From Halobacteriales archaeon YIM A00010 (GTDB taxonomy: Archaea > Halobacteriota > Halobacteria > Halobacteriales > Haloarculaceae), in contig JAKCFJ010000001.1 of assembly GCA_025041175.1 (NCBI GenBank), forward strand, positions 806,001 through 870,000: a stretch of 64,000 nucleotides of DNA, given 5' to 3'. The notes under the pieces were generated by a model. The model saw only the letters and a program-made list of their open reading frames with translations, was not told the DNA's origin and made no database searches. Of this stretch, positions 41,841 to 45,009 are shown one piece after another (position 1 is the first letter of the stretch; every line of letters starts with the position of its first letter). A program made the translations under genes and the position numbers.

Positions 41841-41897
41841 TTGAAATCGACGCGCGTGACACTACAGCAGTCACCGACGACGCGATGGATCGATAGT

Positions 41898-43237
41898 GTG
41901 GATGGTAGTTACAGAAGTACACCCGTAATACCATTTTGTCGAAGTGGGTTGCTCGCGGTCGGGGTCGTCGTTGCGGTGTTCGTCGGATACAACATCGGCG
42001 GCTCCTCGACGGGCGTTGCGTTCGGTCCCGCCGTCGGAAGCCGGATCGTCGGGAAGGCGACCGCTGCCGGGCTGTTCACGGCGTTCGCGCTGGTGGGCGG
42101 GTGGACCGTCGGCCGAAACGTCATCACGACGATGAGCGAAGGGATCGTTCCCGAAAGCCAGTTCACGCTCGCAGCGAGCATCGTGGTGCTCTTTTTCGCG
42201 GGGGACGCGCTGTTGATCTCGAATTTCTTCGGCGTTCCCGTCTCCACGTCGATGACCGCAGTTGGTGCGATCGTCGGTCTCGGCATCGCAACCGACACAC
42301 TCAACGAGCCGATGATGTTCAGAATCGTTTCGGCGTGGATCCTCGCGCCGCTCGTCGCCTTCTGGGTCGGATTCGTGGTCGGACGGTATCTCTATCCACA
42401 CCTCGACGCGCGGCTTTCGTTCACTAGATTCGAGGAAGGACTGGTCCGACTCGACCGGTCCGGACGGATGCCAATGCCCGTCCTCAACGAACGCGCGAAG
42501 CTACGCGACGTTGGAGGGCCGTGGTCGTCCTCCTCGTCGGGTGTTACAACGCTTTCTCCGCGGGCGCGTCGAACGCGGCCAACGCGATCGCCCCCCTCGT
42601 GGGTAGCGGGTCGATCACCGCCAGCCACGGGATCCTGCTGGCAATCGCAGCGATCGGTCTCGGCGGTTTTACGATCGCCAGACGCACCCTCGATACCGTC
42701 GGGGAGGGGCTGACGGATCTCCCGATACTTGCGGCGATGATCGTTTCACTCATCGGCGCAACGATCATCACGGTGCTTTCGAATTTCGGACTGCCGGCGA
42801 GTCTCGCGGTGAGCATGACCTCCTGCATCATCGGACTCGGCTGGGGACGGTCGAGCCGTCACGTCACTGTCGCTGAGGCGACGAGCACTATGGCCGAGGA
42901 AACACCCGGCGAGGCCGCTCGAATCCCGGTCACACAAACCGGCGTTCCGGACCTGTCGACGGACGCTCTCCTCGCGGAAAGCGCACCCTCCGGATCGGGG
43001 GACGCCCCTGGCCGTGGCCACACCATCGGGGAACTCGCCACCGAACAGCCACCCGATGCAACGGAGATTGATCCAACAACAGTACCACGAATCGGGACGG
43101 AAACTCCCGAGGAACTACTGGACGATACACCTGTAATGTTCGATCGGGTCGCCACCGAGCACGTCGTCTTTCTCTGGTTACTCACACCGACGCTCGCGAC
43201 GATCGGATCGTACGTCGTGTTCGTGCTGCTGCTGTGA
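41898..43237 (+). pseudogene. pit: Inorganic phosphate permease (PiT family) with frameshift
   Basis: Two adjacent frames together form one PiT transporter. The first (41898-about 42505) has VAVFVGYNIGGSSTGVAFGPAVGSRIV, GWTVGRNVITTMSEGIV and SNFFGVPVSTSMTAVGAIVG; the second (about 42506-43237) has LVGCYNAFSAGASNAANAIAPLVGSGSIT, NFGLPASLAVSMTSCIIGLGWG and VFLWLLTPTLATIGSYVVF. The change of frame fits loss of one base near 42500-42511, and rejoined text reads RRWRAVVVLLVG. No clear ATG starts the first part: a GTG (41898) or TTG must be used. A hydrophilic insert of about 100 residues precedes the last helix. It may be a pseudogene, a sequencing error or a split gene. Confidence 0.7.
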
Positions 43238-43710: not shown

Positions 43711-43717
43711 TTATAGG
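43711..43717 (+). promoter_or_regulatory. TATA-like box of the iron-type permease
   Basis: TTATAGG sits about 25 bases before the ATG at 43739, the spacing of a leaderless transcript. It directly precedes a palindromic operator. Confidence 0.5.
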
Positions 43718-43720
43718 GTA

Positions 43721-43734
43721 TTAGGTCAGCCTAA
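43721..43734. promoter_or_regulatory. DtxR/IdeR-like metal-repressor operator
   Basis: TTAGGTCAGCCTAA is an inverted repeat (TTAGG...CCTAA) closely like the iron-box half sites bound by DtxR-family repressors. It lies between the TATA box and the first start codon, where a repressor would block transcription. This strongly suggests metal control of the downstream ABC permease. Confidence 0.65.
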
Positions 43735-43738
43735 ACAC

Positions 43739-43837
43739 ATGGGCGGTGATCGGAGACAGAACGCGGCGATCCAATGGCGCGTGGGTCGTGTGGTATCGGG
43801 GGCATCCGCTCGGGGCGGAGGCGATCGAACGCGATGA
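43739..43837 (+). CDS. Possible leaderless upstream ORF, 32 residues
   Basis: ATG 43739 begins MGGDRRQNAAIQWRVGRVV and ends at TGA 43835-43837, overlapping the permease ATG (43834) as ATGA. It starts about 25 bases after the TATA box, so it would be the first codon of a leaderless mRNA. It is Arg-rich and resembles no known protein. It could couple or attenuate permease translation. Chance is not excluded. Confidence 0.4.
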   Translation: MGGDRRQNAAIQWRVGRVVSGASARGGGDRTR

Positions 43838-45009
43838 GTGAGAGCGAGTCCTCGACCGCCACGAGCGCCCAACGCCGATCGGATTCGGGACCAGTGCAGT
43901 GGCTGCTCGATCCGTCGCTGATCGCCCTGTGTGGGGTGAGTGTGGCGCTCGTCGCTGTCGGCGGGTTGGTGCAGGTGAGCTTCGGAGCGTACCAGACGTC
44001 GATCGGGGAGGCGTGGCACGCGGTGTTCGATCCGTCCGTGCTGTTCGACCCCCGGTGGCTACTCAACTTTTTGCTCGGCGAGCCACTGATGCGCTCGATA
44101 ACAGGCTTTGGAGGGACGCTTCCCACGCTTGATAGGTCGACAACCGTCGTTTGGAACATCCGGATACCGCGGGTCGTCCTCGCCGTGTTCGTCGGGATGA
44201 ACCTCGCGGTGTCGGGCGCGATCTTTCAGGCGGTCACCCGGAACGAACTCGCAAGCCCGTTCGTGCTGGGGATCTCTCACGGAGCCGGGTTGGTGATTCT
44301 GCTCACTCTCGTGGTGTTCACCGGTCTCACCACACTGCTCCCGCTGATCGCGGCGCTCGGCGGCGCGGTGGCGTTTGCCATCGTGTACGCGATCGCGTGG
44401 AAAAACGGGACGAGCCCCGTCCGGTTGGTGCTCGCGGGCATCATCGTGGCAACAGTGTTTCAGTCGCTCCAGCGGGCACTGTTCTTTTTCGCCACCGACA
44501 TCGGCACCGCCCAAACCGCCATGGCGTGGATGACGGGATCGCTCACGGGTGTGGACTGGGAACAGATCCGAATGGCGCTACCGTGGACCGCGGTCGTCGT
44601 GGTGTTGGCTGTCGCCAGCGCCCGGCAGCTGAACGTGCTCTTGCTCGGCCAACGAACCGCGAAATCGCTGGGAATGTCCGTCGAACGGGTCCGCTTTGCG
44701 CTTTCGGGGGTGGCCGTGCTCGCCGCTGCCGTGAGCATCGCGGTCGCGGGCGTCGTCAGCTTCGTCGGGCTGATCGTTCCCCATCTGGTCCGAACCCTCG
44801 TCGGCAACGACCACAAAAAACTGATCGTCGGCTGTCTGTTCGCCGGACCGGCGTTGATGGTCGTGGCTGACGTCGGCGCCCGCCTCGGGCTGCCGATCGT
44901 GGCTGGCGCGAGCAACCAACAGCTCCCTGTCGGCGTCGTCACTGGTCTCATCGGGGGACCGTACTTCCTCTATCTCATGCGCAAACAACGACAGCTCGGC
45001 GATATTTGA
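43834..45009 (+). CDS. Iron/siderophore-type ABC transporter permease (FecCD family)
   Basis: A 391-residue membrane protein with about 10 helices. IRIPRVVLAVFVGMNLAVSGAIFQAVTRNELASPFVLGISHGAGL is the FecCD signature; LAGIIVATVFQSLQRALFFFATDIG and VAGVVSFVGLIVPHLVRTLVGNDHKKL (the ATPase-contact EAA-like loop) follow. It would import chelated iron or cobalamin together with a binding protein and an ATPase, neither of which is adjacent. ATG 43834 is chosen; an in-frame ATG at 43774 would add 20 residues. Upstream are a TATA box, a DtxR-like operator and a 32-codon ORF. Confidence 0.9.
   Translation: MSESESSTATSAQRRSDSGPVQWLLDPSLIALCGVSVALVAVGGLVQVSFGAYQTSIGEAWHAVFDPSVLFDPRWLLNFLLGEPLMRSITGFGGTLPTLDRSTTVVWNIRIPRVVLAVFVGMNLAVSGAIFQAVTRNELASPFVLGISHGAGLVILLTLVVFTGLTTLLPLIAALGGAVAFAIVYAIAWKNGTSPVRLVLAGIIVATVFQSLQRALFFFATDIGTAQTAMAWMTGSLTGVDWEQIRMALPWTAVVVVLAVASARQLNVLLLGQRTAKSLGMSVERVRFALSGVAVLAAAVSIAVAGVVSFVGLIVPHLVRTLVGNDHKKLIVGCLFAGPALMVVADVGARLGLPIVAGASNQQLPVGVVTGLIGGPYFLYLMRKQRQLGDI

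Follow-up and report, generated by a model that had tools for sequence, protein, structure and literature searches.

The iron regulon of haloarchaeal FerR, a DtxR-family regulator, has been described (Leyn and Rodionov 2015, cited in PMC11349517), and a signal of DtxR type stands in front of its siderophore ABC transporter genes, as at the locus reported here. According to PMC11349517, all Haloferax fhu genes and operons carry the ferR signal, and the permease HVO_B0197 was upregulated 12.7-fold on iron starvation. As far as they are represented in that source, accounts of the FerR regulon deal with the operator and the regulon; the present locus adds a leader ORF behind the operator.

Translational coupling is also documented in Haloferax. 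Among 14 tested overlapping gene pairs, 13 were strictly coupled, and the SD motif was reported to matter for reinitiation and to be non-functional at Haloferax 5′-UTRs or de novo starts (PMC6728339). Coupling was almost gone at ~20 nt, 15 nt at the 3′ end of the upstream gene were enough, and reinitiation covered distances from −8 to +10 (PMC10666635). The Haloferax volcanii termination–reinitiation pairs of these two sources share with our locus the ATGA or −8 overlaps, an SD motif inside the upstream ORF and the need for a very short distance. However, the pairs presented there are full genes, whereas the upstream member here is a short ORF of apparently free sequence, sometimes a decayed gene. 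Small ORFs of 15–31 codons upstream of normal genes have likewise been reported in H. volcanii 5′-UTRs; 16 such uORFs were chosen inside UTRs of 150–250 nt and called likely real from their low pI (PMC4983044). Unlike the uORFs of that report, the ORF considered here begins at the promoter box and its end overlaps the following gene, and selection on its peptide is slight.

The operator, the leaderless start and the coupling have each been described before. What is new, within the literature searched, is that they stably combine into a sequence-free coupler, in some cases demonstrably a gene stump; that literature yielded no earlier description of coupled or vestigial haloarchaeal leader ORFs, and subscription papers on the regulon and on ribosome profiling lay outside it.

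The permease locus and its iron box

The window, i.e. the whole 64,000-nt stretch of DNA analysed, belongs to a genome that shares its GTDB genus with Halocatena pleomorpha. A TATA-like TTATAG (43711–43716, plus strand) begins 28 nt 5′ of the leader ATG at 43739. Between the two lies a putative DtxR/FerR-type iron box, TTAGGTCAGCCTAA (43721–43734, assigned to neither strand), an exact palindrome with arms of 5 bp and a spacer of 4 bp, followed by ACAC and the ATG. The 32-codon leader ORF, predicted to be leaderless, occupies 43739–43837 on the plus strand, with its TGA stop at 43835–43837, and contains an SD-like GGAGGCGAT (43817–43825, plus strand) 8 nt 5′ of the permease ATG. Stop and start overlap by 4 nt in an ATGA (43834–43837, plus strand; distance −4, inside the published reinitiation range). 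The downstream gene (43834–45009, plus strand, 391 aa) encodes a FecCD-family protein, a probable ferric-siderophore ABC permease (PF01032, 284 bits, 1.2e-84). The stacking of TATA-like element, palindrome and nearby ATG, and the ATGA overlap of a 32-codon ORF with a FecCD permease, had both been proposed in the initial annotation and were confirmed in every element. Haloarchaeal leaderless promoters have their TATA box ~26–28 nt before the start codon, a spacing that TTATAG fits; in a simple TATA scan of 47 box-ATG loci the positions were scattered from −20 to −36.

Relatives of the window permease were found in 54 of 59 genomes. The protein is 86% identical to that of a congener, whose locus equals the H. 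pleomorpha locus L039. The block from GTTCCGGTGTGCTTATA to CACATG is almost the same in three Halocatena genomes, and all three keep the leader frame and the overlap, with leader lengths 6 nt apart. The small frame, whose conservation had been named as a check, is thus retained among close relatives, and many genera show the same architecture. An alternative permease start at the in-frame ATG 43774 was rejected: in two congeners (L010, L011) the frame closes 9 nt 5′ of the ATG equivalent to 43834, so 43834 is the better start. A frameshifted single gene or a sequencing error at the leader was ruled out because the arrangement recurs in three genomes. Upstream in the window, a PHO4 phosphate transporter gene (41841–43237) is split over two overlapping frames by a frameshift or sequencing error, with profile positions 1–137 in 41841–42710 and 205–329 in 42521–43234.

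Genome-wide statements on the box and its regulators come from pattern and family searches. The pattern TTAGGN4CCTAA has one exact occurrence in the window, at 43721–43734. In the window genome it was counted at 8 sites and its reversed control at 3; summed over the 59 genomes, the counts were 535 and 76. The 8 sites form 7 places. Four are the window permease, a decayed fhuD and two Peripla_BP_2 lipoprotein genes whose starts lie 5–6 nt past the box. A class III aminotransferase gene (Aminotran_3) has paired boxes at a distance of 36 bp, and the last two places are a 47-aa DUF7331-like ORF and a non-coding RNA candidate. In relatives the box also precedes permease, fhuD and aminotransferase genes; the aminotransferase may be siderophore-related. 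The genome encodes two strong Fe_dep_repress matches (PF01325, 72 and 63 bits; L119 and L120). We take the box to be the ferR signal. The permease promoter can soundly be read as repressed by iron, which is the probable metal because regulon genes lie behind the boxes. The metal-repressed leaderless operon with a short coupled ORF, as originally suggested, is backed by comparative data, with iron as the predicted metal.

Several further features accompany the boxes. Adjacent boxes are often paired at fixed spacing: among 75 distances of ≤200 bp, 59 were 36 bp and 10 were 34 bp, and such pairs bracket the TATA region (L006, L014, L015, L018, L027 and others). The box-led fhuD of the window genome (L008:1501–3014) is broken, with its parts in more than one frame. 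The DUF7331-like 47-codon ORF (L001:1524–1664) starts 9 nt after its box and scored 25.7 bits in Pfam, just below the cut-off of 27; it is possibly an iron-starvation small protein. A similar-looking 55-codon ORF stands 9 nt after a box in another genus (L111:4969 onward; the Pfam search covered the L001 ORF only).

The RNA candidate lies outside the window (L003:1501–1660, G000:C1:1116293–1116452; relatives L127–L132), where an iron box and a TATA element precede a conserved ORF-free stretch. It is present in all 7 genomes of the genus, the relatives showing 75–77% identity, and RNA-model matches were confined to these 7 of the 59 genomes. The stretch folds into two hairpins in which 4 of 21 pairs have both partners changed, with 96% of cells paired. 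Searches returned no tRNA and no Rfam match. We regard it as a candidate iron-repressed archaeal small RNA; none responsive to iron was found in the literature searched.

Leader ORFs and probable coupling across haloarchaea

The comparison started from 110 permease loci: 30 came from the 59 relatives, and the other 80 were the best of 509 in named genomes. Removal of 10 duplicates left 100 distinct loci. A box, called with at most one mismatch within 320 nt of the permease, was present in 49 and absent within that distance in 51. Most of the 51 boxless permeases stand behind a structural gene (oxidoreductase or fhuD) whose stop is close or overlapping. At 12 of the 49 boxed loci the permease itself begins 4–9 nt after the box, and at 35 a separate short ORF has its ATG 3–10 nt after the box. 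The other two have no such ATG: L101 is without a leader ATG, and L087 carries a GTG-started chain.

The 35 leaders range from 7 to 65 codons. Their distance to the permease was −4 in 15 cases, −11 in seven, −8 in five, +2 in four, and +1 and −17 in one each; the exceptions are −26 (L020, an uncoupled leader) and +121 (L044). At L044:2768–3003, the permease is preceded by two leaders in series (30 and 42 codons), each coupled through an ATGA to the frame that follows it. Eight of the 33 adjoining leaders fall outside the published −8 to +10 range, seven with 11-nt overlaps and one with a 17-nt overlap. The leader loci represent at least 18 genera; many come from closely related species, so the significance figures below overstate independence. 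Two genomes given as different species, G002 and G006, produced matches at identical coordinates on contigs of equal length; G006, listed with 9% contamination, could be a copy of G002 that is mixed or has been extended.

The frequency of coupling by chance was estimated from 1000 shuffles in which the start was re-optimised in every shuffle and the nearest ATG or GTG was taken. This replaced a null with the start codon fixed (mean 17.5), which favours the finding. The leader stop lay −17 to +2 nt from the permease start in 33 of 35 loci, compared with a null mean of 21.1 and a maximum of 27 in 1000 shuffles; this range was picked after the data had been seen. Within the published range of −8 to +10 the count was 25 of 35 (null 14.8, maximum 22). 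A separate count with ATG starts only gave 20 of 35 (null 12.0, maximum 18). The remaining out-of-frame reading frame of the same DNA gave 11 of 35 in either range. An SD match of ≥5 nt to AGGAGGTGAT, which we take as the SD consensus, occurred in the last 20 nt before the permease start at 20 of 35 leaders versus a fraction of 0.20 in shuffles.

These figures bear on an accidental ORF, with the permease translated from a 5′-UTR start and the ATGA overlap arising by chance. Chance coupling is indeed frequent because stops are scarce in GC-rich DNA and many permease genes open with ATGA: about 21 of 35 shuffled leaders (~60%) stop near a permease-frame start. An ATGA overlap beyond chance at the window locus alone was accordingly rejected; only the many-locus pattern is significant. 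However, none of the 1000 shuffles reached the observed 33, the other frame gave only 11, and SD matches are enriched before the permease start, which makes an accidental ORF quite unlikely.

Box-led leaders are also found at other genes. At the Halocatena aminotransferase locus (six distinct genomes), a leader of 23–26 codons ends beside the gene start in four; in one it is fused in frame, and in one it is uncoupled (+24 nt by the first base of the stop). Box-led coupled leaders precede a FAD oxidoreductase gene in Halorubrum, Halobellus, Halorussus and others; the oxidoreductase at L050 matches Pyr_redox_2 with 28.7 bits.

We consider it probable that the iron-switched leaderless leader serves as a ribosome-delivery coupler for the permease by termination–reinitiation. 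When iron is plentiful, an iron-responsive DtxR-family repressor bound at 43721–43734 would block transcription. On its release, the message would begin at or within a few nt of ATG 43739, as the TATA spacing predicts. Leaderless initiation would put ribosomes onto the 32-codon leader; after terminating at TGA 43835 they would restart translation at the permease ATG 43834, which overlaps that stop, with help from the SD-like motif, if the published Haloferax experiments apply here. The comparison of loci shows that selection keeps the frame open between the ATG near the box and a stop next to the start of the permease. Haloarchaea do translate some leadered messages, so coupling may not be obligatory.

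Constraint on the leader peptide

A functional small protein, e.g. a regulator or a permease partner, is favoured by residues kept within genera: two Halocatena leaders share MSGxRRR..GGEQxR, Natrinema leaders are alike, and leader pN/pS is mostly below 1. Nine related leader pairs gave pN/pS of 0.41–1.05 with pN of 0.09–0.41, and the window leader against its congeners gave 0.59–0.92. However, the permeases of the same nine pairs had a far lower pN (0.01–0.08) at broadly similar pS. GC by codon position over the 35 leaders (1223 codons, ends excluded) was nearly flat at 0.67/0.59/0.64, versus 0.66/0.46/0.88 in the permeases. No between-genus likeness is evident, lengths span the full 7–65 codons, and a Pfam search of the window ORF was without match. 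A small protein is accordingly improbable.

A sensing peptide, i.e. an attenuator or stalling sequence that adjusts translation of the permease in response to iron or an amino acid, has a precedent in the leaderless regulatory uORFs of mycobacteria, which likewise lie upstream of or overlap a gene and sense through peptide content. Leaders with CDCC and CGDC in two genomes of one genus could be read in this direction. However, the peptide-content signal of the mycobacterial uORFs is absent here. Among the 35 leaders no conserved peptide and no enriched regulatory codons were found, nor common residues or composition except an arginine richness also seen in other frames of the same DNA, and some leaders are as short as 7 codons. 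We consider such a peptide very improbable. The initial suggestion that the short ORF possibly regulates translation holds for a role in translation, as ribosome delivery; nothing points to a sensing peptide. Scarcely credible is a transcript starting elsewhere, with the box serving another promoter or the minus strand: the box is palindromic, but the TATA-like element lies on the plus side at the expected distance and the box-ATG order is the same in 47 loci (35 and 12).

Judged from these comparisons, the leader frame and its ending are kept and the peptide much less so. Because of this, with flat codon-position GC and high pN/pS, the leader ORF most likely acts in cis rather than as a functional peptide.

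Origin of some leaders from deleted genes

The order of the Halorubrum operon is box, fhuD, oxidoreductase, permease. Among Halorubrum-type loci, five carry short ghosts of 27–59 codons in place of fhuD and nine carry an intact fhuD of 412–437 codons (nine of about sixteen among the matches listed). The 4-nt overlap with the oxidoreductase is kept in 14 of 14 such loci, and the promoter DNA aligns through the ATG; retention of the overlaps across fhuD decay also argues against an accidental ORF. The L050 leader matches the fhuD start with 48.0 bits and the fhuD end with 19.6 bits, and the L049 leader matches them with 41.3 and 15.6 bits. By these two-ended matches both are fhuD genes with the middle removed. 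The L054 leader matched the fhuD N-end only (21.7 bits), and L041 and L047 were placed as fhuD remnants by position, promoter DNA and a weak C-end match. At the level of sequence, the Halorubrum/Halobellus leaders are shown to be internally deleted fhuD genes that kept their start and overlapping stop. Leader ORFs can thus be relics that translational coupling has preserved.

Oxidoreductase remnants directly 5′ of the permease were found at L024 (67.8 bits, behind an fhuD end) and L097 (39.1 bits, box-led). A remnant of the fhuD signal region was detected at L103 (14.4 bits); hints from Natrinema and Halococcus were weaker. The 153-codon leader of H. marina was considered as a decayed fhuD or oxidoreductase and found no support (1.3 bits). 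Scored against four profiles, the window leader gave p = 0.04 for the fhuD C-end, a value expected by chance because 50 peptides were scored against four profiles; the other three were not significant. A vestigial origin of the window's own leader is possible.

We tentatively propose, as a reading that falls a little short of probable, that translational coupling keeps gene ghosts, and that the iron permease leaders, with the window's among them, are such vestiges throughout the family. Haloarchaeal ribosomes would enter leaderlessly and internal starts would need a terminating ribosome, and loss of the first gene's start, frame or overlapping stop would then silence the next gene. In-frame stumps of 7–153 codons would stay as pure couplers and subsequently drift in sequence.

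A class of short unconserved ORFs would thereby be explained as translation hardware rather than peptides, and the rule for which small ORFs matter would be frame and stop position, not sequence. The translation mechanism may in this way constrain operon decay, and such ORFs should not be removed in haloarchaeal annotation or from expression constructs.
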